DNA from: Gammaproteobacteria bacterium | Lineage (GTDB): Bacteria; Pseudomonadota; Gammaproteobacteria; Natronospirales; JAJUFS01 | Length of the DNA: 35,145 nucleotides | NCBI GenBank assembly: GCA_033720895.1 | Contig: JAWWBS010000014.1 | Location: 1-35,145, forward strand | Direction of reading: 5' to 3' | Part shown: in pieces, positions 1-18,339 of the stretch | How the letters are laid out: the number at the start of each line of letters is the position of its first letter | Numbering within the stretch: position 1 is the stretch's first letter | The notes under the pieces: generated by a model | The model's input: only the letters and a program-made list of their open reading frames with translations | Database searches by the model: none | Told to the model about the DNA's origin: nothing | Translations under genes and position numbers: made by a program

Positions 1-1293
1 CTTCTTGGTTGCGCCCATTTTCAGGGCCACGGCAAAACCCTGCAACAGCTCGTCTGAGCCCGCGCCGATGCTGTGCAGGCCGACGATACGCTCCTCGGGA
101 CCGACACAGACCAGCTTCATCGAGGCCTTCACCTTTTCTTTAGACAGGGCATATTCCATCGGATTGAACGTCGAGGTGTAGCACTTCACGTCACCCGGGT
201 ACTTCTCCAGTGCCTCGTCTTCCGTAAGGCCGATGGTGCCGACAGGCGGATGCGAGAAGACCACGGTAGGAATCATGTCGTAATCCAGCTTGCGGTCTTT
301 CATGCCGCCATACAGTCGGTCGGCCAGCCGCCTGCCAGCGGCAATCGCCACGGGTGTCAGCTCGATCCTGCCCGCCACATCGCCGATCGCAAACACGTTC
401 TCGAGCGAACTTTGCTGGTAGTCATCGACTGTCACGTGCCCGCGCTCGGCCAGCTCGACGCCGAGCGCGTCCAGCCCGATATCGGTATTGGGCTGCCGGC
501 CGATCGCCCAGAGAACGGCATCGTAGCCACCATGCTTTTCGCCGCTCTCGGTCGCCAGGCAAAGGCCATCGTCATCTTTCTCCAGCGCGACCGGCACGCA
601 ACCGGTCATCACGCGTATGCCGTCCTGGTTCATGGCTTCCATCAGGCGCTCGCGCAGCATGGGATCGAAACGGCGCAGCACGCTGTCCCGGCGAACCATG
701 ACCGTGACCTTCGCGCCCAGGGCGCTCAGCACGCCCGCCAGCTCGACAGCAATGTAGCCGCTGCCCACTACCAGCACCTGCTGCGGGCAGGCCTCCAGTT
801 CGAAGAAACCATCGGAGGTGATGCCAAGCTCGGCCCCGGGAATGTCCGGCAGGGACGGGCGCCCACCTGTGGCAATCAGCAGGCGTTCGGCAGTGAGCTC
901 CGTGTCGCCGACCTTGACCGTATGCGCATCGAGGCAGCGCGCCTCGCCCTCGATGACCTCGATCTCCCGCCGTTCCAGGTTGCTGGCATAAATGCCGTTC
1001 AGGCGCTGGATGTAGGCCTCGCGGTTCTCGACCAGCGTTTTCCAGTCCAGGTCGGCATTGGCAGGCGAAAAGCCGAAATCCGGGGCGCGGTGCAGGCGGT
1101 GGCGGAAATCCGCGGCGAGCCACATGACTTTTTTCGGCACGCAGCCGACATTCACGCAGGTACCGCCCAGCTTGCCCTTTTCGATGACGGCAACGCTTGC
1201 GCCGTACTCGGCCGCGCGCTGCGCCGCGGCCAGCCCGCCACTGCCGCCGCCGATCACCAGCAGGTCGTAGTCATATTCAGCTTTTTCGTGCAT
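1..1293 (-). CDS. gor: Glutathione-disulfide reductase (partial, C-terminus off the left edge)
   Basis: This flavoprotein reduces glutathione disulfide with NADPH in the cytoplasm. The 431 codons in the window start at the ATG complementary to 1291-1293, with a GAGG ribosome site 8 nt upstream. Visible are the FAD dinucleotide-binding motif (IGGGSGG, residues 14-20) and the redox-active disulfide GGTCVNVGC (Cys46/Cys51). A second nucleotide-binding motif ([12 protein letters not shown]) is followed by the arginines VRRDSVLRR expected for NADPH rather than NADH preference. The FAD-domain signature AIGRQPNT and the interface segment near [13 protein letters not shown] are also present. The window ends inside the dimerisation domain, about 20 residues before the usual C-terminus, which would contain the HPTxxEE catalytic His-Glu pair. 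The gene diverges from lemA. GGxCVNVGC and the arginines argue for glutathione reductase over dihydrolipoamide dehydrogenase. Confidence 0.93.
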
Positions 1294-1375: not shown

Positions 1376-1948
1376 ATGGATGTCAGTACGTTCATTTTTC
1401 TCGGCCTGCTCGTCGTAGCGGTCGTCTATTTCATCACCATCTACAACAACCTCGTGCAGCTGAAGCACAACGTCTCCAAGGCATGGGCCAATATCGATGT
1501 CCTGCTGAAGCAGCGCCATGACGAGCTGCCCAAGCTGGTCGAGACCTGCAAGCAGTACATGGGTTACGAGCAGGAAACCCTGGAGAAGGTGATGAAGGCT
1601 CGCGCTGCCGTGTTCGCCGCGCGCGAGGAAGGTGACGTCAAGGGCGTGGGCCAGGCCGAGGGCATGCTGCGCATGGGGCTTGGCAACCTGTTTGCGGTCG
1701 CCGAGCAGTATCCCGACCTGAAGGCCAACGATTCCTTCCAGCACCTGCAGGCCCGCATCTCCGGCCTGGAGAATGCCATCGCCGACCGTCGCGAGTTCTA
1801 CAACGAGTCGGTCAACAACCTCAACGTGCGCATCGAGCAGTTCCCCGATGTCATCGTGGCCCGCAATCTCGGCTTCAAGGAAGCCGATCTCCTCGAATTC
1901 TCCGAGGAGGAAAAGAAGGACGTGGACATCAAGCAACTGTTCGGTTGA
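1376..1948 (+). CDS. lemA: LemA family membrane protein
   Basis: A 190-residue protein of normal LemA length. One N-terminal membrane segment (about residues 5-22) is followed by the family's conserved start of the helical domain (YNNLVQLKHNVSKAWANIDV), in which a long helical bundle faces away from the membrane. The biochemical function of LemA proteins is not settled; they are commonly encoded beside membrane proteins, HtpX-like proteases or TPM-domain proteins. The ATG follows an AAGGA site (about 1363). Its stop codon overlaps the start of the next gene (TGATG), so this is the first gene of a translationally coupled operon with three GIDE-type membrane proteins. Family assignment is secure; the role here is unknown. 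Confidence 0.92.
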   Translation: MDVSTFIFLGLLVVAVVYFITIYNNLVQLKHNVSKAWANIDVLLKQRHDELPKLVETCKQYMGYEQETLEKVMKARAAVFAAREEGDVKGVGQAEGMLRMGLGNLFAVAEQYPDLKANDSFQHLQARISGLENAIADRREFYNESVNNLNVRIEQFPDVIVARNLGFKEADLLEFSEEEKKDVDIKQLFG

Positions 1949-2982
1949 TGGTCGACTTCTTCCGGGAGCTGGTCCAGGAATCAGCCGTACATGATTTCTG
2001 GCTGATCTGGCTGGCAGGCGTCGCCGTGGCGCTGCGGGGCATCTACCTGGCGCGTGAATACTGGCAGACCTCGCGCCTGGTCGAGGACCTGCCGCCTTCC
2101 CGCACGCGCTCGGCAGCGCAAGGTTACGTGCAGCTGGTCGGTGTCATCCAGGACGATGGAAACCTGGTCACTTCGCCGCTGAACGGCGACAAGGTCGCCT
2201 GGTGGTCCTTTACCGAGCAGGAACTTCTACAGGGGTCGGGTCGCAATATGCCGGTCGGCGTAATGATTGCCTACCTGGCGGCCATGTTCTTTTTTCCGCG
2301 GGCAAGAATCTTTTCCTCGAAGCAGAGCAACAGTCCCTTCGTCGTTAAAGACGACACCGGCATGTGCGCGGTCTACCCGGAGGACGCGCGGGTCATTGCA
2401 GCGGACAAGCGGACAGGAGAGGGCTGGTCCAGCCCGGAGATCAAGCCGGAGGATCGCGTCCTGCAAGGCGAAAAGGCACAAGTGACACGACGGCGCGGAT
2501 CGAGACGCAGCTGGGACGATGGTCGGAAACGAATTGTCGAATACCGCCTCAGCCCTGGCGAGCGTATTTATGCGATCGGCCGGTTTGAATCTTTCAACTA
2601 TCAGGTCGAAGTCAACGAACTGCATGCTGAAAGCATCGACGTGCTGGCCGAGATGCAACAGGACAAAGCATCGATACTGGAGCGCTTCGACAGCAACCAG
2701 GATGGCAAACTGGATGCCGCCGAATGGGCGCGGCTGCGACGTGCGGCCAATGTCGAAGCCTCGATGCGATTGCGTGGTCGCGTCCGCCGCGAAACGCGGC
2801 ACCGGATCCGCAAGCCCGATGCCGACAACCGCTTTGTCATCATAAGCCTGGATGACCCCGCGCTCGGCCCCGCGCTGCGCCGCCGCGCCATGCTCTGGCT
2901 GCTGGCCTTCTTCAGCCTGGGCACTGCCTGCCTGCTCGCGTTCAACCTGCGCGTCGCGCTGTCGCCCTTGCTGGGCAGCTGA
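1948..2982 (+). CDS. GIDE/BAM-domain membrane protein with an EF-hand, paralogue 1
   Basis: Unnamed 344-residue protein of the 'E3 ubiquitin ligase family' (GIDE/BAM domain, related to the inter-membrane domain of eukaryotic MUL1) but without a RING finger. The layout is an N-terminal TM (about residues 17-36) and the family signature SRTRSAAQGYVQLVG. Next come the conserved core VVKDDTG and the segment LSPGERIYAIGRF. An EF-hand loop DSNQDGKLDAAE (residues 248-259) precedes a C-terminal TM (about 313-335). A further hydrophobic stretch, MPVGVMIAYLAAMFFF, sits inside the GIDE domain and is missing from the two paralogues. Start chosen at ATG 1948, overlapping the lemA stop by one base; a TTG one codon upstream is possible. 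Enzymatic ubiquitin ligase activity is not implied, since no RING is present. A role linked to LemA in the envelope is an inference. Confidence 0.85.
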   Translation: MVDFFRELVQESAVHDFWLIWLAGVAVALRGIYLAREYWQTSRLVEDLPPSRTRSAAQGYVQLVGVIQDDGNLVTSPLNGDKVAWWSFTEQELLQGSGRNMPVGVMIAYLAAMFFFPRARIFSSKQSNSPFVVKDDTGMCAVYPEDARVIAADKRTGEGWSSPEIKPEDRVLQGEKAQVTRRRGSRRSWDDGRKRIVEYRLSPGERIYAIGRFESFNYQVEVNELHAESIDVLAEMQQDKASILERFDSNQDGKLDAAEWARLRRAANVEASMRLRGRVRRETRHRIRKPDADNRFVIISLDDPALGPALRRRAMLWLLAFFSLGTACLLAFNLRVALSPLLGS

Positions 2983-2989
2983 GGCCAGC

Positions 2990-3916
2990 GTGTTCGCGCC
3001 GGTCGAATCATTCCTGCTTGATGCCAACAGCACGCTTGTCGTGGTTCTGTCGTTGCTGTGGGCACTGTTTTCGCTGGTACTGCTGTCGCTGTCGCTACGG
3101 GACGGGCGCCTGCTGAGGATCATCGCGGGCACGATGACAGAACGGGTCGCCAGCGCGACCCAGGGCTATACCGAGCTACATGGCAAGGCCGTGCTGCTGA
3201 AGGGTCCGGTCATTCGTTCGCCGGGTGGCCGTGCCTGTGCCTGGTATCGAACCTGGCATACCGAACCACCGGTAACGGCGGAAGACGAGCGCAGCGTCTT
3301 CATGACAACCTATAAGCACACGCCGGGACAACTTCAGAATTACAAGAACACGATGTTCGGAGAAAGCAGCGACGAGTTGTTCGGTATTGATGACGGTACG
3401 GGAATCTGCATCATCGATCCGGAAGACGCAGGCGTGCTGCCCAGCGCGCGGGCCTGGCGTATCACCAACGGTGCTAGAAGGTTCCGTGAACACTACATCC
3501 TGGAAGGCGACGACCTCTACGTCTGCGGCTGGTTCCGGACCCTCAACCACGAAGGCATCGAGCACGAGCGCGGTGCGGAAGTCGCGGCACGCATCGGCCT
3601 GTGGAAGCGAACAGGCATGCCGGAGCTGCTGGCCGAGTTCGACCGCAATGGCGACGGCGAGCTGGACCCGGATGAATGGCAGGCCGTGCGCGACAAGGCC
3701 ATCAAGGAAATCGAGCGCGAGTACCGTCAACGGGTGCTGGACCGGACACCGCACCTGATACATGCACCCGCGGACGGGCGGCCGTTCATCATTGGCGCCG
3801 CGACGGAGCCTGATTTGCTGGACCAGCTGAAAAAACGGATCATCGTACGCAGCTTGTTGGCAAGCGGCATTCTCGCTGTCATCTTCTACGTACTCGACCT
3901 GAGAGGAATGCTTTGA
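2990..3916 (+). CDS. GIDE/BAM-domain membrane protein with an EF-hand, paralogue 2
   Basis: A 309-residue paralogue of its two neighbours. The start is GTG 2990, 7 nt after the preceding stop, with GAGG (2981-2984) five nt upstream; longer readings would overlap the previous gene. It has an N-terminal TM (about residues 14-33) and a GIDE-type domain with degenerate signature SATQGYTELHG. The conserved IDDGTGICIIDPEDA follows, then LEGDDLYVCGWF. A complete EF-hand loop DRNGDGELDPDE (residues 218-229) is followed by Trp. The segment HAPADGRPFIIG matches the PPDGRPFILS of paralogue 3, and a C-terminal TM closes the protein. This is the most diverged of the three copies in the N-terminal half. 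No RING finger or protease motif is visible. Function unknown. Confidence 0.85.
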   Translation: MFAPVESFLLDANSTLVVVLSLLWALFSLVLLSLSLRDGRLLRIIAGTMTERVASATQGYTELHGKAVLLKGPVIRSPGGRACAWYRTWHTEPPVTAEDERSVFMTTYKHTPGQLQNYKNTMFGESSDELFGIDDGTGICIIDPEDAGVLPSARAWRITNGARRFREHYILEGDDLYVCGWFRTLNHEGIEHERGAEVAARIGLWKRTGMPELLAEFDRNGDGELDPDEWQAVRDKAIKEIEREYRQRVLDRTPHLIHAPADGRPFIIGAATEPDLLDQLKKRIIVRSLLASGILAVIFYVLDLRGML

Positions 3917-4848
3917 TGGGATCCGGACTGGCTGCTCAAATCCAGGTCATGCAGACCGATGACTATGTCATTGCCTGTGTCTTTGCCGCCGCGGCCTGCC
4001 TGGGTGGCTTCTGGTGGTGGTTTCGCTCGATGAAGCGGGCGCGCCTGATCGAAGACACGCCGACCTCGAAATGCCGTTCGGCAGCGCAAGGTTACGTCGA
4101 GCTGATCGGCATGCAGGAGATGATGCCGGGCGAACCGATCAAGGCACCGCTGACCGGCAAGAATGCCACCTGGTGGGCCTACGATATCGAGGAAAAGCGC
4201 ACGACCTATTCCAAGGGCAAGCGGGAGACGCGCTGGGTGTCGATCGAGTCCGACACCTCGGGCGAGATTTTCCTAGTCAAGGACGATACGGGCGAGTGCA
4301 TCATCGACCCGGACCATGCCGAAGTGCACGAAAGCGAAAAGGATGTCTGGTACGGCAGTTCGCGCCGACCGACCAACACGCCCAAGACCAGCTCCATGTT
4401 CGGGGGCCGCTACCGCTACACCGAGCGCCGGATGCGGGTGGGTGATCCGATCTATGCAATCGGTTTCTACGAAACCCGTGGGCGGCAGCAGGACCCCATG
4501 CACAAGCGCAACGAAGTCGCCGAGCTGCTGGGCGAATGGAAGAAAGACCAGCGCAGCCTGCTGAACAAGTTCGATACCGACAAGGACGGCCAGATCGACC
4601 TGCAGGAGTGGGAATCGGTGCGCGCCGAGGCGGAGCGCATGATCGAAGCGCGTGCTCGCGAGGCCGCACTGGCACCAGACATCAATTTGTTGCTGTGCCC
4701 GCCGGACGGGCGGCCCTTCATTCTCTCGACCGTCCCTGAGAAGCAGCTGACCCGGAAGTTCCGTATCCGCGCGGTTTTCGGGCTGGTCGGCTTTCTTGGC
4801 GGCGGCGCAAGTGGTACCTTTTTGCTCCTCGCGCGAAACCTGATCTGA
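3916..4848 (+). CDS. GIDE/BAM-domain membrane protein with an EF-hand, paralogue 3
   Basis: A 310-residue paralogue whose ATG shares one base with the previous stop codon; a purine-rich GAGAGGA lies at 3901-3907. The N-terminal TM is at about residues 15-36. The best match to the family signature in the set follows (DTPTSKCRSAAQGYVELIG), then KNATWWAYDIEEK, VKDDTGECIIDPDHA and MRVGDPIYAIGFYE. An EF-hand loop DTDKDGQIDLQE (residues 220-231) comes next, then PPDGRPFIL and a C-terminal TM ending just before the stop. Last gene of the lemA operon. Two outer TM segments around a soluble domain match the MUL1-like topology known for GIDE proteins, but bacterial members lack the RING module. Calcium binding is predicted from the loop, not shown. 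Confidence 0.87.
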   Translation: MGSGLAAQIQVMQTDDYVIACVFAAAACLGGFWWWFRSMKRARLIEDTPTSKCRSAAQGYVELIGMQEMMPGEPIKAPLTGKNATWWAYDIEEKRTTYSKGKRETRWVSIESDTSGEIFLVKDDTGECIIDPDHAEVHESEKDVWYGSSRRPTNTPKTSSMFGGRYRYTERRMRVGDPIYAIGFYETRGRQQDPMHKRNEVAELLGEWKKDQRSLLNKFDTDKDGQIDLQEWESVRAEAERMIEARAREAALAPDINLLLCPPDGRPFILSTVPEKQLTRKFRIRAVFGLVGFLGGGASGTFLLLARNLI

Positions 4849-4927: not shown

Positions 4928-6979
4928 ATGAGCAATACCCGCAAGCAACAGCCAGCCAATCCGCTGCTGGCTGACAGCGACCTGCCGCTGTTCGACGCCA
5001 TCCAGGCAGAGCATGTCAGTCCTGCGATCGACCAGCTGCTGGCCGATAATCGGGCCCGGCTGTCCGAACTGCTGACGCAGGAAAACCTCGACTGGGACGG
5101 GCTGATGCAGCCACTCGAGGCGATGGATGACCAACTCAACCAGGCCTGGTCGCCGGTGGTGCACCTGAACGCCGTGGTCAATTCACCGGCGCTGCGCGAC
5201 GCCTATAACGAGAACATTCCCAAGCTTTCGGACTACGAGACGGAAATGGGCCAGAACCGGCAGCTGTTCGACGCCTTCAGGTCGCTGGCTGACCGGCAGG
5301 ACGAACTCGGCCTGGATGCCGCCCAACGCAAGGTGCTGGCCGACGAGCTGCGTGACTTCCGGCTTTCCGGCGTGGACCTTCCCGAGGACAAGCAGGCGCG
5401 CTTCAAGGAAATCCAGCAACAGCTTTCCAGCCTGCAGGCAAAATTCGAGGAGAACCTGATCGATGCGGCAGCGGCCTGGCACCTGAAGGTGACCGAAGAA
5501 AGGCAACTGGCCGGCATACCGGATGATGCCATTGCGCGGGCGCGCGGCATCGCCCAGGAAGGCGGGCATGACGGCTGGTGGTTCGCACTCGACTTTCCGC
5601 ATTACCACGCCATAGCGACGCATGCCGAAAACGAGGAGCTGCGTCGCGCCATGTACGAGGCATGGGTCACCCGTGGCTCGGACCAGGGCCCGACGGCCGG
5701 CACCTACGACAACAGCGACATCATGCGCGAGATACTCGCACTCCGTCAGGAAGAAGCCGGACTGCTTGGCTACGACAATTTTGCCGAGGTCTCGCTGGCC
5801 AGCAAGATGGCGGACTCCACGGAAGAAGTGGAAACCTTCCTGCTTCGCCTGCTCGAGCGCGTCAAACCCCGGGCCGAGCAGGAGTTTGCTGCGCTGTGCG
5901 ATTTTGCGCGCGATGAGCTTGGCATGAAGACGGTCAATGCCTGGGATACCGGCTTTGCCAGCGAGCGACTGCGCAAGGCGCGCTACGATCTGTCGCAGCA
6001 GGAGCTGAAGCCTTACTTCCCGCTGCAGAAAGCCATTGACGGGCTGTTCTGGCTGGTCGGCGAGCTTTACGGCTTCAGCGTGAAGGAAACCGCCGCCAGC
6101 CACACCTGGCACCCGGATGTGCGCTTGTTCGAGATCACCGATGCCAATGGCGAGCACCGCGGCCGGCTATACATGGACCTGTTCGCCCGGCCGCAGAAAC
6201 GCAGCGGCGCGTGGATGGACGAGGTCAAGAACCGCTTCCGCAAGTCCTCCGGCCTGCAGCACCCGGTGGCCCACCTGGTCTGCAATTTCTCCCCGCCGGG
6301 GAAAGATGGCAAACCGGCGACATTGACGCATGACGACGTGCAGACCCTGTTCCACGAGTTCGGTCACTGCCTGCATCACCTGTCGACGCAGGTTGACTAC
6401 CCGAGCGTGGCCGGCATCAATGGCGTGGCCTGGGATGCGGTCGAGCTGCCAAGCCAGTTCCACGAGAATTTCTGCTGGGATCGCGACATTCTCAAGCGCC
6501 TCACGGCGCACGTCGACAGCGGCGAGTCGCTGCCCGATGTACTGATCGACCGCATGCTGGCGGCGCGGCATTTCAATGCCGGCCTGTTCCTGGTGCGCCA
6601 GCTGGAATTTGCGCTGTTCGATCTCCGGCTGCACCGCCAGCCGGGCGCGGACGTGGGAGCAACCCTGGCAGCCACCCGCCAGGAAGTGGCGGTGGTTCCG
6701 GCGCCGGCATTCAATCGCTTTGCGCATGGTTTTTCGCATATCTTTGCAGGTGGCTATGCCGCCGGGTATTACAGTTATCTGTGGGCCGAGGTGATGTCTT
6801 CGGATGCCTTTGGTGCCTTCGAAGAAGCCGGTCTGCTGGACAAGGCGACCGGGCGACGCTTCCTGAACTGCATCCTTGAAAAGGGGGGCAGTGCGGAGCC
6901 GGGCGAACTGTTTGTCGCCTTCCGCGGCCGCGCCGCCAATGAGGATGCTTTTCTCCGCCATCACGGCATGGACAAGTAA
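4928..6979 (+). CDS. prlC: Oligopeptidase A (M3 family zinc metallopeptidase)
   Basis: Cytoplasmic zinc peptidase that degrades short peptides, including cleaved signal peptides. At 683 residues it is the size of E. coli PrlC (680). The catalytic zinc motif HEFGH lies at residues 476-480, and the third ligand is probably Glu506 in VELPSQ, matching M3 spacing. The N-terminal NPLL..DLPLFDAIQAEHVSPAI is typical of the family. I chose ATG 4928 because it fits the family N-terminus, although its ribosome site is poor. A TTG at 4895 with GAGG 7 nt upstream would add 11 residues and starts inside the palindrome. The gene follows the GIDE operon by 79 nt and is followed closely by an SH3-domain protein gene. 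Confidence 0.95.
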   Translation: MSNTRKQQPANPLLADSDLPLFDAIQAEHVSPAIDQLLADNRARLSELLTQENLDWDGLMQPLEAMDDQLNQAWSPVVHLNAVVNSPALRDAYNENIPKLSDYETEMGQNRQLFDAFRSLADRQDELGLDAAQRKVLADELRDFRLSGVDLPEDKQARFKEIQQQLSSLQAKFEENLIDAAAAWHLKVTEERQLAGIPDDAIARARGIAQEGGHDGWWFALDFPHYHAIATHAENEELRRAMYEAWVTRGSDQGPTAGTYDNSDIMREILALRQEEAGLLGYDNFAEVSLASKMADSTEEVETFLLRLLERVKPRAEQEFAALCDFARDELGMKTVNAWDTGFASERLRKARYDLSQQELKPYFPLQKAIDGLFWLVGELYGFSVKETAASHTWHPDVRLFEITDANGEHRGRLYMDLFARPQKRSGAWMDEVKNRFRKSSGLQHPVAHLVCNFSPPGKDGKPATLTHDDVQTLFHEFGHCLHHLSTQVDYPSVAGINGVAWDAVELPSQFHENFCWDRDILKRLTAHVDSGESLPDVLIDRMLAARHFNAGLFLVRQLEFALFDLRLHRQPGADVGATLAATRQEVAVVPAPAFNRFAHGFSHIFAGGYAAGYYSYLWAEVMSSDAFGAFEEAGLLDKATGRRFLNCILEKGGSAEPGELFVAFRGRAANEDAFLRHHGMDK

Positions 6980-7752: not shown

Positions 7753-8517
7753 ATGAAGATCGCTAGCTGGAACGTCAATTCGCTGAGAGTGCGCCTGCCC
7801 CAGGTGCTGGACTGGCTGGAGACGGCGCAACCCGATGTGGTCGGCCTGCAGGAAACCAAGCTCACCGACGACAAGTTCCCGGTCGAGGAACTGCGGGAAG
7901 CGGGTTACCACGCCAGCTTCCACGGCCAGAAGACCTATAACGGCGTTGCCCTGTTGAGTCGCCAACCCGCGGCTGGGGTTCGCACCGGTATCGAGGGATT
8001 CGAGGACAGCCAGGCACGGGTCATTGCCGGCAGCTTCGATGGGGTGCGAGTACTGAACCTCTACGTGCCCAACGGCTCGGAAGTCGGTTCGGACAAGTAC
8101 GCCTACAAGCTGGACTGGCTGTCCCACATGACGGCCATGGTGGAAAAGGACCTGCAGGTGCACGACAGGATGGTCGTGCTCGGGGACTTCAACATCGCCC
8201 CCGCCGATGCGGACGTCCACGATCCGGACGCGTGGCGCGACAAGATCCTCTGCAGCAAGCCCGAGAGAGAGGCCCTGCAGAAGCTGCTCGAGCTCGGTTT
8301 TGTCGACAGCTTTCGCTTGTTCGACCAGCCTGCGGAGATCTTCAGCTGGTGGGACTACCGGGCAGCGGGTTTCCGCCGTAATCGCGGCCTGCGAATCGAC
8401 CTGTTGCTGGCCAGCAAGGCCCTGCAGGACAAGGTGACGGCGTCTGATATCGATCGGGAGCCACGGACCTGGGAGCGGCCGTCAGACCATGCTCCGGCCT
8501 GGTTGACGCTCGACTGA
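7753..8517 (+). CDS. xthA: Exodeoxyribonuclease III (AP endonuclease)
   Basis: A 254-residue EEP-fold nuclease for base-excision repair that cuts 5' of abasic sites and has 3'-5' exonuclease activity. All motifs are present: Asn7 in SWNVNS, the metal ligand Glu34 in LQETK, Asp145/Asn147 in GDFN, and the catalytic pair Asp245-His246 in PSDHAP. RGLRIDLLLAS is the usual C-terminal core. Length is close to other XthA proteins. The ATG begins one base after the stop of the SH3 protein gene, indicating coupling. The more typical partners of xthA (pyrE, rph) are not in this window. Confidence 0.95.
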   Translation: MKIASWNVNSLRVRLPQVLDWLETAQPDVVGLQETKLTDDKFPVEELREAGYHASFHGQKTYNGVALLSRQPAAGVRTGIEGFEDSQARVIAGSFDGVRVLNLYVPNGSEVGSDKYAYKLDWLSHMTAMVEKDLQVHDRMVVLGDFNIAPADADVHDPDAWRDKILCSKPEREALQKLLELGFVDSFRLFDQPAEIFSWWDYRAAGFRRNRGLRIDLLLASKALQDKVTASDIDREPRTWERPSDHAPAWLTLD

Positions 8518-8518
8518 G

Positions 8519-8570
8519 CCCAGGCGGCCTGGAGCCCCAGGGGCGCCCCACGGGCGTTCTCGGGGCTGAT
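8519..8570 (+). terminator. GC-rich hairpins after xthA (weak terminator candidate)
   Basis: CCAGG-CGG-CCTGG (8520-8532) lies two nt past the xthA stop. AGCCCC...GGGGCT frames a larger GC-rich fold, followed by a T-rich stretch (TGATTTCTTGCCTTTTT). This is not a textbook intrinsic terminator. Confidence 0.35.
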
Positions 8571-8615
8571 TTCTTGCCTTTTTCGCCCAAACCCTGCCAT
8601 TTCAGCCATTTTGAG

Positions 8616-8631
8616 TGTGATATTGCTCACA
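8616..8631 (+). promoter_or_regulatory. CRP/Vfr-type binding site upstream of the HD-domain gene
   Basis: TGTGATATTGCTCACA has both perfect half sites TGTGA and TCACA with the correct 6-nt spacing, plus a TTT flank on the right. A -10-like CATAAC (8670-8675) with no recognisable -35 would place the site centre near -58, close to class I CRP geometry. The gene it would control starts at 8733 and resembles a cyclic-nucleotide phosphodiesterase. Whether this organism has a CRP cannot be seen from the window. Confidence 0.7.
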
Positions 8632-8732
8632 TTTTGCCCAAGGCAGGGAGGACGAAGCTTTCTATTTCACATAACCTTGGTTGTCTGAAGTGGAATTTGC
8701 TTCGCTGGCTAGACGCAGGAGGGGGGGAAAAG

Positions 8733-9689
8733 ATGCGTGACCGCCGCAGCGACTTCGATGTCACCAACACCGTGCAGGTGAGCAGCCCGTCAGAGGTCTG
8801 CGCCGCGGTGAAAGGCATCTGGTCACATCATTTCGACGCCCCGGCCTATGCGCCGGTGGCCGCTGCATTCCACAAGCTGGAAGCGGCGTTTGTCGGTCGC
8901 GCGCCCGGCCTGCATGGCATCGAAACCACCTACCATGACCTGCAGCACACCCTGGACGTGACCCTGGCAATGGCACGCCTGCTGGACGGTCATGCGCGCG
9001 AGCATGGCGCCAGCGAGCTGGGGCAGGAGCGCTGGGCCGTGGGGCTGATCACTGCACTCTTCCATGATGCCGGCTACCTCAGGAAACTGCGGGATACGCA
9101 GCACCAGCATGGTGCCGAGTACACGCGGGTGCACGTTTCCCGTTCCGCCGACATGCTGGTGGAACTGCTGCCTGAACTTGGCTATGGCGATGCCAGCGAC
9201 ATTGCCGCGGAGATGGTGCATTTCACCGGCTACGAGCGTCCCTTTGACCAAATCGACATCGAAGATCCGAAGTGGATCAAGACCGGTCACCTGCTGGGCA
9301 CCGCCGACATGCTGGCGCAGATGGCAGACCGCTGCTACCTGGAGAAGTGCCGTGACCGTTTGTATGCGGAATTCGAGATGGGCGGCATGGCCAGGATGCG
9401 TGCGCCCGATGGCCGCATCATCGTGAACTACTCCTCGCCGAAGGACCTGTTGAAGAAGACGCCGGGCTTCTGCACCACCACCCTGGAGAAGCGACTGGGT
9501 GGCCAGTTCGACAAGGCACATCGCTACCTGGACGTGCACTTCGGCGGTCCGAACCTCTACCTTCAGGAAATTCGCGCCAACCTGGCCCACCTGTCGCGGG
9601 TGATCGAAGAGGGGCGCTGGGACCTGCTGCGCCGCAAGCCGCCCTGTTTCAACATCGACCATTTCAGTCGCAACGAAACACGCCACTGA
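8733..9689 (+). CDS. HD-fold protein resembling class I cyclic-nucleotide phosphodiesterases
   Basis: A 318-residue cytoplasmic protein with no TM segment. The start is ATG 8733, 10 nt after AGGAGG; upstream in-frame codons run back through the CRP site and are unlikely to be coding. The motif TTYHDLQHTLDVT is close to the YHNxxHxxDV signature of class I phosphodiesterases. It is followed by the metal-binding His-Asp of ALFHDAGY and a later Asp in LLGTADMLAQMADR, together giving the H...HD...D ligand set of the HD superfamily. The substrate is not determined by sequence; cAMP hydrolysis is an inference strengthened by the CRP-type site in front. It is separated from xthA by 215 nt and followed by a strong terminator, so it is probably monocistronic. 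Confidence 0.78.
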   Translation: MRDRRSDFDVTNTVQVSSPSEVCAAVKGIWSHHFDAPAYAPVAAAFHKLEAAFVGRAPGLHGIETTYHDLQHTLDVTLAMARLLDGHAREHGASELGQERWAVGLITALFHDAGYLRKLRDTQHQHGAEYTRVHVSRSADMLVELLPELGYGDASDIAAEMVHFTGYERPFDQIDIEDPKWIKTGHLLGTADMLAQMADRCYLEKCRDRLYAEFEMGGMARMRAPDGRIIVNYSSPKDLLKKTPGFCTTTLEKRLGGQFDKAHRYLDVHFGGPNLYLQEIRANLAHLSRVIEEGRWDLLRRKPPCFNIDHFSRNETRH

Positions 9690-10102: not shown

Positions 10103-11941
10103 TTACTCGACCGTGACGGATTTTGCCAGGTTGCGCGGCTTGTCGACATCCGTGCCCTTGAGCACGGCAACATGGTACGACAGCAGCTGCAAGGGGATGG
10201 TATAGACAATCGGCTCGGTCAGCGGGCCGTAATGCTTCGGCATGTGGATGACCTCGATGCCTTCACCGGATTCGATACCTGCCTCAGGGTCGGCAAAGAT
10301 GTAAAGCTGCCCGCCCCGGGCGCGCACTTCCTGCAGGTTGGCTTTCAGTTTTTCTACGAGCTCGTCATTCGGTGCGACCGCAATTACCGGCATGTCGGCA
10401 TCGACCAGCGCCAGCGGACCATGCTTGAGCTCGCCCGACGGATAGGCCTCGGCGTGGATGTAGGAAATTTCCTTCAGCTTCAACGCACCTTCCAGGGCGA
10501 TCGGGTAGTGCACGCCACGGCCGAGGAACAGTGCGTGATGCTTTTCCACGAACTGCTCGGACAGCTCGGCAATCTTGTCATCGAGCTGCAAGGCTTCTTC
10601 CACCGAACTGGCGATAGCGCGCAGGCCGCCGACGATCTTCTTCTCTGCAGCCTTGTCGAGATTGCCCTTGATGCGAGCGAGCACGACGGTCAGCAACACC
10701 AGGGCAACCAGCTGGGTGGTAAAGGCCTTGGTCGACGCCACGCCGATTTCCGGACCGGCACGAGTCATCAGCACGAGGTCGGATTCGCGAACGAGCGAGG
10801 ATTCCGGCACGTTGCAGATGGCCAGCGAGGCCAGGTAACCGCTGTCCTTGGCCATGCGCAGCGCGGCAAGCGTATCGGCAGTCTCGCCGGACTGGGAGAT
10901 GGTCACGAACAAGGTATTGTCGGTGACCACGGGATCGCGGTAACGATATTCGCTGGCCACCTCGATCTGGCAGGGCACCTTGGCAAATTTCTCGATGTAA
11001 TAACGCGCGACCATGCCGGCGTGGTAACTGGTACCGCACGCGATGATCTGGACCTGCTCGACCTTCTTAAGGAGCTCGCCTGCCTGCACGCCAAACGCGG
11101 CTTCCAGGACATGATCGTCTGTCAGGCGCTCTTCCAGCGTCTCGGCAATCGCGCGCGGCTGTTCGTAGATTTCCTTCAGCATGTAGTGACGATATTCGCC
11201 ACGTTCGACGGCGTCGGCCGACAGCTCGCTGTCACGCTGCGGACGTTCGGCCGACTTGCCGTCCTTGTCGATGACTTCGACCTTGTGCTTGCGAACGCAG
11301 GCGACGTCTCCCTCTTCGAGGAAGGAGAAACGGCGTGTCACCGGCAACAGTGCCGACACATCGGAGGCGACGAAATTCTCGCCTATGCCGTGGCCGATAA
11401 CGACCGGGCAGCCCATTCTTGCAGTCACCAGCACGTCCCTGTCCTTCGGGCTGGTGACAACCAGGGCATAGGCACCGTGAAGCTTTTTGACCGCACGCTG
11501 GACAGCCGCAAAGAGATCCTGGTCCTGCTGGAATTGCTGGTGCACGAGATGTGCGACAACTTCGGAATCGGTTTCCGAAGTGAATTCGTAGCCAGCGCTC
11601 TTCAGCTCCGTGCGAAGCTTTTCGTAGTTTTCGATGATGCCGTTGTGCACCAGCGCGATATCGTCACCGGAGAAATGCGGGTGCGCATTGCTTTCCGAAG
11701 GAGCGCCATGGGTTGCCCAGCGCGTATGCGCGATACCGCTGTGGCCTTTCAGGCTGTGTTCCTGCAGGCGATCTGCGAGACCCTGCACCTTGCCTTCGAC
11801 GCGTTCGCGATCCAGCTTGCCATCGACATCGACCACAGCGATGCCGGCAGAGTCATAGCCACGGTATTCAAGTCGGCGGAGTCCCTCGAGCAGGATGGGC
11901 ACGACATCACGTTCTGCATTGGCTCCGACAATTCCGCACAT
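10103..11941 (-). CDS. glmS: Glutamine--fructose-6-phosphate aminotransferase (isomerising)
   Basis: Makes glucosamine-6-phosphate from fructose-6-phosphate and glutamine, the first committed step to UDP-GlcNAc. At 612 residues it is close to E. coli GlmS (609). The N-terminal glutaminase domain begins MCGIVGA, with Cys2 as nucleophile after Met removal, and contains RGYDSAG and HTRWATHG. Two SIS sugar-isomerase domains follow ([10 protein letters not shown] and SQSGETADT in the first; [19 protein letters not shown] in the second). The C-terminus ends KSVTVE, as in the family. It starts 15 nt after the glmU stop, which leaves no room for a glmS ribozyme or a long leader. Confidence 0.97.
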
Positions 11942-11956
11942 GGTCTTTCTTCCTGG

Positions 11957-13318
11957 TTATTTCTTGGTAGGACGCTGCCAATCGGCGATTTCCGATTGTC
12001 GCGCCCGCGTTACAGCGAGGGCGTCGTCGCCAACATCCTTGCTGATGACAGAACCCGCACCAACGGTGGCATTCCGACCGACTCGGACCGGCGCCACCAG
12101 CGAGGCATTTGAGCCAATGAAGGCACCATCCTCGATGACGGTACGATGCTTGTTCACCCCGTCGTAATTGCAGGTGATGGTACCAGCGCCGATGTTCACG
12201 ACTTCGCCGATACTGGCATCGCCGATATAGGTCAGGTGGTTGACCTTCGCACCCCTGGCCAGCTCGGACTTCTTTATCTCGACGAAATTGCCCACCTTGA
12301 CGTCATCTTTCAGCAGGCTTCCCGGGCGCAACCGAGCGTAGGGGCCGATACTGCAGGACTTGCCGATATCGGCAGATTCGATGTGGGAAAAAGCATCGAT
12401 GACGGTGTTCTTGCCGACCGTGACATCGCGCAACACGCAATTCGGTCCGATGCGTACGCCGTCAGCCAGCGTCACCTTGCCTTCGAAGACCACGTTGACG
12501 TCCACCTGGACATCAAGGCCGCAGCTCAGTTCGCCGCGGATGTCGATGCGCGCAGGATCGAGGAGATGCACGCCTTGCTGCATCAATGCCTGCGCCTGGC
12601 GCTCGCGGTACATGGCTTCTGCCGCAGCGAGCTGGGAGCGATCGTTGATGCCATGAACTTCGGCAGCAGACTGGGCGGCGACGCCGACCACTTCCATGCC
12701 TTCGGCAACGGACATGGCGATGATGTCGGTCAGGTAGTACTCGCCCTGGGCATTGCGGTTGTCCAGCGACCGCAACCAGCGTTTCATTTTCTCCGCCGGT
12801 GCCGCCAGCAGGCCCGTGTTGATTTCCCGGATGTCGCGTTCCTTGTCGGTGGCATCCTTGTGCTCGACAATGCGCTCGATCCGGCCCTGGGTGTTGCGCA
12901 GGATACGGCCGTAACCCGCCGGATCATCCAGCTCGATCGTCAGGAGCCCGAGGGTCGAATCACTGGTCGCCGCCAGCAGGGCGTCGAGCGACGTTCGGGT
13001 GATCAGCGGCACATCGCCATACAGCACGAGCACGATGTCCTCGTCGGACACTTCCGGCATGGCCTGGTCCACGGCATGGCCCGTGCCGAGTTGCTCGGCC
13101 TGGAGGACCCAGTCGACGCCGTCACGGTCGCAGGTCTCTCGAACCGCGTCCGCGCCATGGCCGTGCACGACCAGCAGGCGCCGCGGGTCGAGCGCCTGCG
13201 CAGTGTCCAGCACATGATCCAGCAAGGGCCTGCCTGCCAATGGCTGCAGCACCTTCGGCAACTGCGAGCGCATGCGGGTTCCCTGGCCGGCGGCAAGTAC
13301 GATGATGCTGACAGTCAT
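11957..13318 (-). CDS. glmU: Bifunctional GlmU: N-acetylglucosamine-1-P uridyltransferase / glucosamine-1-P acetyltransferase
   Basis: Cytoplasmic enzyme making UDP-GlcNAc for peptidoglycan and LPS. It has 453 residues (E. coli 456). The N-terminal nucleotidyltransferase has LAAGQGTRM (8-16) with Lys22 in LPKVL, then LYGDVPL and YYLTDII. The C-terminal half is a left-handed beta helix of hexapeptide repeats with the acetyl-CoA/active-site region NFVEIKKSELARGAKVNHLTYIGDA and GTITCNYDG. It is followed by glmS on the same strand, so two steps of one pathway are co-expressed. It lies downstream of the atp operon but is separated from it by a terminator. Confidence 0.97.
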   Translation of the reverse strand: MTVSIIVLAAGQGTRMRSQLPKVLQPLAGRPLLDHVLDTAQALDPRRLLVVHGHGADAVRETCDRDGVDWVLQAEQLGTGHAVDQAMPEVSDEDIVLVLYGDVPLITRTSLDALLAATSDSTLGLLTIELDDPAGYGRILRNTQGRIERIVEHKDATDKERDIREINTGLLAAPAEKMKRWLRSLDNRNAQGEYYLTDIIAMSVAEGMEVVGVAAQSAAEVHGINDRSQLAAAEAMYRERQAQALMQQGVHLLDPARIDIRGELSCGLDVQVDVNVVFEGKVTLADGVRIGPNCVLRDVTVGKNTVIDAFSHIESADIGKSCSIGPYARLRPGSLLKDDVKVGNFVEIKKSELARGAKVNHLTYIGDASIGEVVNIGAGTITCNYDGVNKHRTVIEDGAFIGSNASLVAPVRVGRNATVGAGSVISKDVGDDALAVTRARQSEIADWQRPTKK

Positions 13319-13372
13319 GATGAAATCTCCATCCGCGGATTCTACCGGATGGCCCGGCCACTAAAAAGAATC

Positions 13373-13404
13373 CCAAAACGAAGAAACGCAGCAAATGCTG
13401 CGTC
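13373..13404 (-). terminator. Intrinsic terminator of the atp operon
   Basis: On the minus strand, 33 nt after the atpC stop, ACGCAGCA-TT-TGCTGCGT forms an 8-bp stem followed by TTCTTCGTTTT. It separates the ATP synthase operon from glmU. Confidence 0.8.
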
Positions 13405-13437
13405 TCCCCGTGGTCCTGCTTGTCCGAAAATGCTGTT

Positions 13438-13854
13438 TTAACGCTTGCTCTTGATCTTCTGGACAAACTTGAGGCGGGCAGCGGCCTCGGCCAGCTCGGC
13501 CTGGGCACGGGCCATGTCGATTTCGCCGGCATTGTCCTTGAGGGCCTCTTCGGCTTCCTGCTTGGCCTTCAACGCCGCGGCTTCGTCCATGTCATGGGCG
13601 CGCAGGGCGGTATCCGCCAGCACGGTCACGAGATGTGGCTGGACTTCCAGCATGCCGCCGGAGACGAAGAACTCCTGCTCGTTGCCGTCAGCGTCCTGTA
13701 CCCGCACTTCACCCGCCTTCAGGCGTGTCAGCATCGGGGAGTGACGCGGGGCAATGCCCACTTCGCCCATTTCCGCCGGTGCATAGACCATCTTCGCGGC
13801 ACCCGAGAAGATGGACTGCTCTGCACTGACAATGTCTACATGAATGGTCGACAT
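13438..13854 (-). CDS. atpC: F1Fo ATP synthase subunit epsilon
   Basis: A 138-residue central-stalk subunit that couples rotation to catalysis and can inhibit ATP hydrolysis. The N-terminal beta-sandwich (MSTIHVDIVSAEQSIFSG, APAEMGEVGIAPRHSPMLT) is followed by a C-terminal helical hairpin (DMDEAAALKAKQEAEEAL to KFVQKIKSKR). Length is normal for the proteobacterial subunit. It is the last gene of the operon, 24 nt after atpD, and is followed by an intrinsic terminator. Confidence 0.97.
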   Translation of the reverse strand: MSTIHVDIVSAEQSIFSGAAKMVYAPAEMGEVGIAPRHSPMLTRLKAGEVRVQDADGNEQEFFVSGGMLEVQPHLVTVLADTALRAHDMDEAAALKAKQEAEEALKDNAGEIDMARAQAELAEAAARLKFVQKIKSKR

Positions 13855-13878
13855 TCGCTTTATCCCGTTGCTCGTCTG

Positions 13879-15312
<1,434 letters not shown>

Positions 15313-15337
15313 TCAGTATTCGTACTTGCTGTCGGTC

Positions 15338-16204
15338 TTAACTGACCGCTGCAGCACCGCCGACGATTTCCGCCAGCTCCTGCGTAATTGCTGCCTGGCG
15401 GGCCTTGTTGTAGGCCAGCTGCAGGTCGCCGATCAGTTCGCCGGCGTTGTCGGACGCGGCCTTCATGGCAACCATGCGGGCGGCCATTTCACAGGCCACG
15501 TTCTCGACCACGCCCTGGTAGGCCTGCGACTCCACGTAGCGCATCAGGAAGCTGTCCAGCAGCTCGCCCGAGCTCGGCTCGTAGATGTAATCCCAGTAAT
15601 CCTGGAGATCTTCTTCGTCGGCCATCTGCACCGGCAGCAGCTGCAGGCATTCCGGCTGCTGCGTCATGGTGTTGACGAATTCGTTGTTCGCCAGCACCAG
15701 CTTGTCGATGCCGCCATCCTTGTAGGCGTCCAGCATGATCTTGACCGTGCCGATCAGGTCGTCCACGTGCGGCGTGTCGCCGAGGTGGCTGGTCGAGGCC
15801 ACGATGTTCAGGTCCGACAGGCGCTTGAAGAAGCCCATCGCCTTGGCACCGATGACGATCAGGTCGACCTCGACACCCTGGTCCTTGTAGCCCTTGATCT
15901 CGCGCAGCACGCGCTTGAACAGGTTGATGTTCAGGCCGCCACACAGGCCACGGTCGGTGGAGATCACGATCATTCCGACGCGCTTCACTTCGCGCTCGAC
16001 CAGGAACGGATGCCGGTAGTCCGGGTTCGCCTGGGCCAGGTGACCGATGACGCGACGGATCTTCTCCGCATACGGACGCGACGCGGCCATGCGATCCTGG
16101 GCCTTGCGCATCTTGGACGCCGCGACCATTTCCATGGCCTTGGTGATCTTCTGAGTACTCTGGATACTCTTGATCTGTGTCCGGATTTCCTTTGCGTTTG
16201 CCAT
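15338..16204 (-). CDS. atpG: F1Fo ATP synthase subunit gamma
   Basis: A 288-residue rotor shaft with the two terminal helices forming the coiled coil. The N-terminus [36 protein letters not shown] is diagnostic in its first segment, and the C-terminus has [18 protein letters not shown] and [20 protein letters not shown]. Length equals E. coli AtpG (287) to within one residue. It starts 12 nt after atpA and is followed by a 61-nt gap before atpD. Confidence 0.98.
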
Positions 16205-16216
16205 CAGGAGCTCCGC

Positions 16217-17758
16217 TTAGTAAGCGTGGTTCGCCTTGAAGTCTTCAAGAGCGGACTTGAACTTGGCTTCGATGTCGCCATTCCAGTCACCGCTCTCGTT
16301 GATCTGCTTCATCAGGTCGCCGTGCGAGGAATTCATGTAGTCGTGCAGCGCGCTTTCGAAGTCCTTGATCTTGTCGTCAGCGACATCGTCAAGGTGGCCT
16401 TCGTTGGCGGCGTACAGCGACACGCCCATTTCGGCAACCGAGAACGGTGCGTACTGGGCCTGCTTCATCAGCTCGGTGACCTTGCGGCCGTGATCCAGCT
16501 GCTTGCGGGTCGCGGCGTCGAGATCGGAAGCGAACTGCGCGAAGGCAGCCAGCTCGCGATACTGCGCCAGCGCGAGACGCACACCACCGCCAAGCTTCTT
16601 GACGATCTTGGTCTGGGCCGCACCACCGACTCGGGATACCGAGATACCGGCGTTCATTGCCGGGCGGATGCCGGAGTTGAACAGGTCGGACTCCAGGAAG
16701 ATCTGGCCGTCGGTGATGGAGATGACGTTGGTCGGGACGAAGGCCGAGACGTCACCCGCCTGGGTTTCGATGATCGGCAGGGCGGTCAGCGAACCGGTCT
16801 TGCCCTTCACCTTGCCACCGGTCATCTGCTCGACGTACTCCTCGTTCACACGAGCAGCGCGCTCCAGCAGGCGGGAGTGCAGGTAGAAGACGTCACCCGG
16901 GTAGGCTTCACGGCCCGGCGGACGACGCAGCAGCAGGGAAACCTGGCGGTAAGCCACGGCCTGCTTGGACAGGTCGTCGTAGATGATCAGGGCGTCTTCG
17001 CCACGATCACGGAAGAATTCACCCATCGAGCAACCGGAGTAGGGAGCGATGTACTGCAGCGCTGCGGACTCGGAGGCGGAGGCCGCGACGATGATGGTGT
17101 GATCCATCGCGCCGTGCTCTTCCAGCTTGCGAACCACGTTGGCGATCGTCGAGGCCTTCTGGCCGATCGCGACGTAGATGCACTTAATGCCGGAGCTCTT
17201 CTGGTTGATGATGGTGTCGATCGCCATCGCGGTCTTGCCGGTCTGGCGGTCGCCAATGATCAGCTCGCGCTGGCCACGGCCGATCGGCACCATGGAGTCG
17301 ACCGCGGTGTAACCGGTCTGGACCGGCTGGTCGACGGACTTGCGGGTGATCACGCCCGGCGCGACCTTCTCGATCGGAGAAGTGGCCTTGGCCTTGATCT
17401 CGCCCTTGCCGTCGATCGGACGACCGAGGGAATCCACGACGCGACCCAGCAGTTCGTCACCGACCGGCACTTCGAGAATGCGGCCCGTGGTCTTTACCGT
17501 GTCGCCTTCGGAGATGTGCTTGTAGTCACCCAGCACGACTGCGCCGACGGAATCACGCTCGAGGTTGAGCGCCATGCCGAAGGAGTCGCCCGGGAACTCG
17601 AGCATTTCACCGTACTGCGCGGCGGTCAGGCCATGAATGCGGACAATACCGTCGGTCACGGAGACCACGGTACCGACATTCGCTTCGGCTGCGCCGGCTT
17701 CGAAGTTCTCGATCTTGTCTTTGATGATCGAGCTGATTTCCGAAGGATTGAGTTGCAT
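16217..17758 (-). CDS. atpA: F1Fo ATP synthase subunit alpha
   Basis: The regulatory nucleotide-binding subunit of F1, 513 residues when started at the ATG complementary to 17756-17758. This gives [10 protein letters not shown], as in E. coli (513 aa), and has GAGGA upstream; a TTG two codons earlier is less likely. The P-loop GDRQTGKT is at 169-176 with Lys175. The signature [17 protein letters not shown] and the conserved arginine in that segment complete a competent alpha/beta interface. Same-strand position between atpH and atpG. Confidence 0.98.
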
Positions 17759-17802
17759 CGTCAATTCCTCAACTTTTCAATTTCTGTAGTGTGTCCGCGG
17801 CC

Positions 17803-18339
17803 TTAACTGGCAATGCGAACAGCGAGACGTTCCAGCTTTCCTTGAACCGAATCATCGATGACGAAGTCACCGGCGCGAACGATCGCACCGCCGACAATGC
17901 TGGCATCGACCGAAGTCTTCAGTTCGACATCACGGCCCAGTCGCTTGGCCAGGGCAGCCTTGATGGCGGCCACCTGGGCATCCGACGCTTCGACTGCCGT
18001 GCGCAGTTCTGCCTGCACGGAGTTTTCCGCATCGGCGCGCAGCGCCGTGTAATCCTCGGCAATCGCCGGCAGCACGGCAAGGCGACGGTACTTTGCCAGC
18101 ACGCGAACGAAGTTCGCGCCCTTGGCGTCCAGCACGTCACCGGCCGCCTTCAGGAACACCTCGGCCTGCACTTCCGTGCTGACCCGCGGGTCCTTCAGCA
18201 TGAACTGGATGTCTTCGTTGGCGGCAACTGCAGCCAGCGTATCCAGCATCTTCTGCCAGTCTTCAAAGCGACCTTCAGCCTGGGCGAGTTCGAAAACCGC
18301 CTTGGCGTAGGGCCGTGCCAATGTCGAAATATCTGCCAT
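17803..18339 (-). CDS. atpH: F1Fo ATP synthase subunit delta
   Basis: A 178-residue peripheral-stalk subunit linking the b dimer to the top of F1. The N-terminal helical bundle begins ADISTLARPYAKAVFELAQ. The C-terminal domain has KTSVDASIVGGAIVRAGDFVIDDSV, matching the family signature for this region. The gene lies between atpF (32-nt gap) and atpA (44-nt gap). Normal length. Confidence 0.97.
   Translation of the reverse strand: MADISTLARPYAKAVFELAQAEGRFEDWQKMLDTLAAVAANEDIQFMLKDPRVSTEVQAEVFLKAAGDVLDAKGANFVRVLAKYRRLAVLPAIAEDYTALRADAENSVQAELRTAVEASDAQVAAIKAALAKRLGRDVELKTSVDASIVGGAIVRAGDFVIDDSVQGKLERLAVRIAS

Follow-up and report, generated by a model that had tools for sequence, protein, structure and literature searches.

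Proteins with a BAM (GIDE) domain have been described from prokaryotes, in none of them with a RING finger, and from eukaryotes, where the BAM domain of human MAPL faces the intermembrane space and its ancestral role has been called an open question (PMC4457424). Among LemA proteins, a 2016 study gives MamQ as the sole member linked to a cellular process, and suggests that it acts as a hub in the membrane, organising other proteins (PMC4902198). Here we analysed positions 1 to 35,145 (forward strand) of contig JAWWBS010000014.1 from a gammaproteobacterium of the order Natronospirales (assembly GCA_033720895.1), a stretch of 35,145 nucleotides (nt) referred to below as the window. Inspection of open reading frames (ORFs) gives four coupled genes at 1376-4848, namely lemA and three tandem genes, A, B and C, each for a BAM protein with an EF-hand (BAM-EF protein). 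A preliminary description had seen in them a calcium-responsive envelope complex built up at this locus, a view that was partly right and that credited family-wide features to the triplet. A search of the literature outside most subscription journals yielded no paper on a lemA-GIDE-EF module.

Family membership and copy number

The overlaps or gaps of at most 7 nt first described are borne out by the ORF coordinates. lemA and A overlap by 1 nt (TGATG, A starting from ATG at 1948), a 7-nt gap separates the end of A at 2982 from the GTG start of B at 2990, with GAGG 5 nt upstream of B, and B and C again overlap by 1 nt (TGATG, C from ATG at 3916). The LemA protein scores 162 bits against PF04011 (curated cut-off 26.2), is 83% identical to the LemA of the nearest relative and is related to the solved structure 2etd. 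Searches with the GIDE (PF12483) and EF-hand profiles gave matches in all three copies. Against GIDE, C scores 36.6 bits and exceeds the gathering score of 23.6, A falls narrowly below it with 22.9 bits, and B reaches 16.8 bits (E 0.0048), its C-terminal part alone matching. These weak scores of A and B are not due to chance, since both score strongly against a homologue profile in which they are themselves included (Table 1), and since all 77 aligned family members match GIDE at E<=0.01. Pairwise comparison shows paralogy of the three copies along most of each sequence (identity 25-30%, E from 1e-17 to 3e-32), and by these matches and this paralogy A, B and C belong to the BAM/GIDE family, as had been proposed.

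No RING finger was matched by Pfam in A, B or C at E<=1, so the reported absence is correct, and it is the prokaryotic norm (PMC4457424) rather than a special trait of these copies. A ubiquitin-ligase-like role of the three proteins, as the Pfam description would have it, draws on the family name alone, which derives from the eukaryotic members, and with no RING in the copies or in any prokaryotic BAM protein (PMC4457424) we regard it as hardly credible.

The usual state of the family was surveyed with the homologue profile in 56 genomes of the nearest kin, 19 of the order, 369 of the class and 398 of the phylum (overlapping sets), and in 80 named loci kept of the 378 matches that an alignment scan gave in a collection of species genomes, where a single-sequence scan with C had given nothing. 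A match is carried by 97 of the 369 genomes of the class, and in the phylum set full-length matches are confined to this same class. The pair of lemA and BAM-EF gene is present in the Pseudomonas mendocina/oleovorans group, Nitrosomonas, Ectothiorhodospira, Solimonas, Methylocaldum and many metagenome bins. In all 80 named loci the BAM-EF gene is a single copy; lemA lies directly upstream in 79, the remaining locus being cut there by the start of the contig, and all except one have an intact EF loop. The association with lemA is thus confirmed, the genes being linked to it rather than scattered. Three tandem copies occur in no other of the more than 100 carrier genomes, and two in one of them (G256); no further family copy was found in the present genome beyond A, B and C, and no plasmid was found to carry a BAM-EF relative. 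Judged from these comparisons, the EF-hand, the lemA linkage and the absence of a RING finger are the ordinary state of the family and copy number is the unusual feature, which close kin not yet seen may have in common with this genome.

Two further observations touch on copy number. G256 has lemA with a BAM-EF gene split by a contig break and a second BAM-EF gene, 49-59% identical (L165, L166), and the ends of its contigs C46 and C101 have exactly 49 bases in common. Within the order, L027 has a BAM-EF remnant (1453-1797, C-terminal part only) directly ahead of prlC and no lemA in the stretch fetched, an apparent loss of the pair in this one member.

LemA-BAM fusions, the EF-hand and its position

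Support for the proposed link between LemA and BAM proteins comes from G089 and G154, genomes that belong to different families and in which two GIDE domains and a LemA domain form a single chain (L159 and L160 in Table 1). The two chains are colinear over positions 11-749 of 756 residues with 33% identity, and in a reading of their sequences hydrophobic segments that look like two membrane passes separate LemA from the last BAM domain, an arrangement that would place both kinds of domain on the same side of the membrane. We take such fusions as good evidence that the separate LemA and BAM proteins cooperate. Each of these genomes also has a separate LemA.

An EF-hand_5 match is found at the same place in all copies (A 8e-4, B 3.7e-5, C 1e-5), each below the gathering score, and the canonical ligands at loop positions 1, 3, 5, 9 and 12 together with the glycine at position 6 are intact in A, B and C. 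Among 74 diverse homologues, position 1 is Asp in 73, position 3 Asn or Asp in all, position 5 Asp or Asn in 72, position 6 Gly in all and position 12 Glu in 73; position 9, mostly Asp, is less invariant than the other ligands. From this we infer that the EF loops of A, B and C would bind calcium. The EF-hand was rightly described as present in all three copies at the same place; it was not built up at this locus, as the single-copy relatives have it too, and on these comparisons it is the ancestral state of the single-copy gene. Better retention of EF residues than of BAM residues was not significant in either diverged copy (Fisher p 1.0 for A and 0.051 for B). In Ectothiorhodospira magna (L077, BAM-EF gene 8001-8930) lemA and the BAM protein are kept and the EF loop is degenerate, FNIDLQGHIDMAAW.

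The conserved loop may also be read as a constitutive structural metal site, where calcium or magnesium stabilises rather than signals, as expected of a lone and nearly invariant EF-hand embedded in a folded domain, rigid structural sites conserving their ligands as well. That a BAM protein beside lemA (L158) does without the EF-hand argues that the fold is independent of it, and the cytoplasmic side on which the loop is predicted to lie (see below) is one of low free calcium, where a sensor is sensible; a purely structural site is possible and, in our view, somewhat doubtful. The L158 gene (1916-2860), with a lemA of its own next to it, forms a second set in G163, where a further full-length BAM-EF match also occurs.

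The structure of C was modelled by AlphaFold2 with 77 sequences (predicted local distance difference test score, pLDDT, 95.9). The model starts with a helix (residues 14-47) and a strand-rich domain, continues with helices in the interval 194-251 and two further strands in 256-271, and ends with a helix at 275-306. Because the helices at 194-251 precede two more strands, the EF-hand is predicted to sit inside the BAM domain, between two strands, rather than being appended to it, and the fusion assumed in the preliminary description is better described as an insertion. GIDE profile positions 6-110 align ahead of the insert (in C) and positions 114-156 past it (in B), and the EF-less paralogue of L158 lacks exactly positions 189-237 of the homologue profile. 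The model of A (pLDDT 85.4) has a similar order of elements.

Compared with solved oligonucleotide/oligosaccharide-binding (OB) folds, the BAM core of C gave five rows with Z 8.0-9.3, RPA and E. coli ygiW among them, four of the five at 2.5-2.6 Å over 76-79 residues. Foldseek with the predicted structure gave nothing at E<=0.001, and since that search alone returned no significant match we grade an OB-like barrel as likely rather than established. No BAM structure was among the 60 best profile rows from solved structures, which were EF-hand proteins matched mostly through the EF segment.

Two hydropathy peaks, corresponding to two membrane helices, flank the BAM domain in A, B and C; in the model of C these are the first and last helices, 14-47 and 275-306. 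In 84-92% of a set of 116 proteins that includes these three, positive residues border both helices on the side of the loop; at the termini they are scarce. By the positive-inside rule this predicts a cytoplasmic position for the loop with its BAM domain and EF-hand. A periplasmic BAM-EF domain, with a calcium site that reads or uses external calcium, would agree with the homology to MAPL and its BAM domain in the intermembrane space (PMC4457424), and is at odds with this distribution of charges at both helices in most of the proteins; we consider it improbable. Of the membrane complex first envisaged, the LemA-BAM link is retained, and its envelope location gives way to a calcium site predicted at the cytoplasmic face of the inner membrane.

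Origin of the triplet and a proposed module

The nearest relative (G001, the genome of L047) has the order gor - lemA - X - prlC - xthA with a single X, an order also found in L078 (Natronospirales) and L075 (Steroidobacteraceae). C is 53% identical to the X of L047 and groups with X in the tree (support 91/93), with a branch length of 0.53 against 2.75 for A and 3.26 for B, five to six times longer. On this phylogenetic evidence C is the orthologue of the relatives' single-copy gene, and A and B are long-branched copies; where these two belong in the tree is uncertain, and the data do not reject a grouping of all three copies as one clade (p-AU, approximately unbiased test, 0.098). A and C have in common a 35-nt island of similar DNA that includes six consecutive identical codons (TCG GCA GCG CAA GGT TAC), L047 having another codon at five of the six positions. 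Given the amino acids, such a match has a probability of about 1.5e-4 as a product of codon frequencies, an overstated figure because the island was chosen for its similarity. The island speaks for duplication in place, or for gene conversion at a later time, rather than for import. A horizontal origin of A or B is not favoured, the best outside relative being 32-35% identical and rare codons being common to A and C. An assembly artefact as source of the triplet was ruled out by the 25-30% identity between copies, the single 35-kb contig and the conserved flanks.

The proposal that we prefer draws on the near-constant lemA adjacency, the single-chain fusions, the conservation of the EF ligands, the model of C and the pattern of positive residues, together with the single-copy neighbourhood of the nearest relative and the coupling of the four genes. 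According to it, the products of lemA, A, B and C would form a LemA-BAM module of the inner membrane that has its calcium site on the cytoplasmic side and, in this genome, two extra diverged subunits, and we hold it about as readily as we doubt it. Each BAM protein would be anchored by its two membrane helices, with the BAM domain and its OB-like barrel core on the cytoplasmic face. Calcium on the EF-hand could move the inserted helices against the barrel, a movement that may alter the assembly of BAM with LemA or with other BAM subunits. One BAM-EF protein would suffice for the module in most gammaproteobacterial carriers; here local duplication would have added two fast-diverging subunits beside the ancestral C, the outcome being most likely a mixed oligomer or specialised subunits. 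That the complex is calcium-switched, the EF-hand controlling its assembly, and that a homo-oligomer has turned into a three-subunit hetero-oligomer in this lineage, seems to us rather unlikely; if true, it would give the LemA family a function and the BAM domain of MAPL a bacterial setting.

It may instead be that lemA and C alone are the working pair, with A and B neofunctionalised or drifting outside the complex and the triplication without collective meaning. The long branches of A and B, the loss from each of roughly one conserved BAM residue in four, and the single copy with which nearly all relatives manage are all in line with this; however, A and B are intact coupled ORFs of more than 300 codons that keep all EF ligands and both membrane helices, and A is still predicted to fold in the same way, and we entertain a lone lemA-C pair only tentatively.

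Several observations weigh against the LemA-BAM module with its calcium site and extra subunits. EF-hands mostly operate in pairs and a lone one is unusual, and the numbers of conserved BAM residues retained, 34 of 45 in A and 32 of 45 in B, lie at the low edge of the family. The BAM-EF gene stands without adjacent lemA in two genomes (L182, L183), and unlinked second copies in three (L155-L157) have no lemA in the stretch fetched. Both the fused chains and the lemA-linked paralogue of L158 lack an EF-hand; because the fused chains do, calcium would be an added layer of the module rather than a requirement. Of the unlinked copies, those at L155:1454-4408 and L156:1546-2829 (both minus strand) lie in longer frames of 985 and 428 amino acids (aa) with similar C-terminal extensions.

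The pattern at family level may be a more valuable result than the triplet. That LemA's genetic partner has a nearly invariant calcium loop inserted in its BAM domain, and that LemA-BAM fusions occur naturally, makes the questions of LemA function and of the BAM role directly testable. The triplet offers a handle on the role of the widespread and little-understood LemA proteins, and is an experiment of nature that can show which BAM positions tolerate change when the EF loop is retained.

Features are listed in Table 1. The gor-like gene, a conserved neighbour, is divergent from lemA and extends past the start of the window, and of the 74 named loci with sufficient sequence, 30 have prlC downstream in the same orientation. 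A promoter-like site at 1313-1340, upstream of lemA, scored at chance level in a promoter scan. Elsewhere in the window, 10103-18339 (minus strand) holds glmS-like, glmU-like and ATP synthase genes in ordinary order.

Table 1. Positions of genes, loops and segments, in window coordinates unless a locus is named.
Feature	Position	Strand	Basis or remark
gor-like flavoprotein disulphide reductase gene	1..1293	-	sequence motif; tblastn to L047, L078, L075, L115
lemA	1376..1948	+	PF04011 E 1e-47; sole LemA match of genome; one N-terminal membrane helix
A, BAM-EF protein, 344 aa, diverged	1948..2982	+	PF12483 E 6.5e-5; EF-hand; 314 bits, homologue profile (A and B included in it)
A/C DNA island in A	2107..2141	+	DNA comparison; 89% identical to island in C
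Hydrophobic insert unique to A, residues 101-119	2248..2304	+	hydropathy peak 1.51 and alignment; low-confidence helix in model
EF-hand loop of A, DSNQDGKLDAAE	2689..2724	+	every ligand position canonical
B, BAM-EF protein, 308 aa, GTG start, diverged	2990..3916	+	paralogy to C E 1e-29; 287 bits, homologue profile (A and B included in it); EF-hand_5
EF-hand loop of B, DRNGDGELDPDE	3641..3676	+	every ligand position canonical
C, BAM-EF protein, 310 aa, orthologue of relatives' single-copy gene	3916..4848	+	PF12483 E 3.8e-9
A/C DNA island in C	4075..4109	+	DNA comparison
Helical segment of C with EF-hand, residues 194-251, predicted between two BAM strands	4495..4668	+	predicted secondary structure; flanking GIDE profile positions
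EF-hand loop of C, DTDKDGQIDLQE	4573..4608	+	every ligand position canonical
prlC-like oligopeptidase A gene	4928..6979	+	PF01432 E 6e-140; conserved downstream neighbour
GIDE-GIDE-LemA ORF, 759 aa	L159:1743-4019	-	two GIDE domains and LemA domain
GIDE-GIDE-LemA ORF, 763 aa	L160:2229-4517	+	two GIDE domains and LemA domain

Comparison with described systems

The prokaryotic BAM/GIDE proteins (PF12483, annotated 'E3 Ubiquitin ligase') resemble A, B and C in their profile match, in a BAM domain between two membrane helices and in the absence of a RING finger; the present proteins differ by the EF-hand insert, which is normal in this gammaproteobacterial branch, and by their three tandem copies. 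The single-copy pair of lemA and BAM-EF gene (L047, L074 of Pseudomonas oleovorans, L093 of Nitrosomonas marina) is alike in gene order, EF loop and the two helices, with one copy against three here, and the divergence of A and B greatly exceeds that of every orthologue in the focused tree. Eukaryotic MAPL/MULAN/MUL1 likewise has its BAM domain between two membrane helices, but carries the RING finger that is lacking here, has no reported EF-hand (PMC4457424) and has its BAM domain on the side opposite to that predicted for the present proteins. Wolframin, a membrane protein with an EF-hand and an OB fold (PMC7016017), bears a likeness to the BAM-EF proteins with their likely OB-like core, although its domains are separate, it is a protein of the animal endoplasmic reticulum and there is no evidence of a common origin.

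With the magnetosome protein MamQ the LemA domain is common, and the accessible part of the MamQ study names no BAM partner (PMC4902198); the LemA described here scores 86.3 bits against the MamQ NCBIfam equivalog, far below its cut-off of 250. The GIDE-GIDE-LemA chains unite BAM and LemA with more than one BAM domain per LemA, as at this locus, and unlike it they do so in one polypeptide and with no EF-hand.

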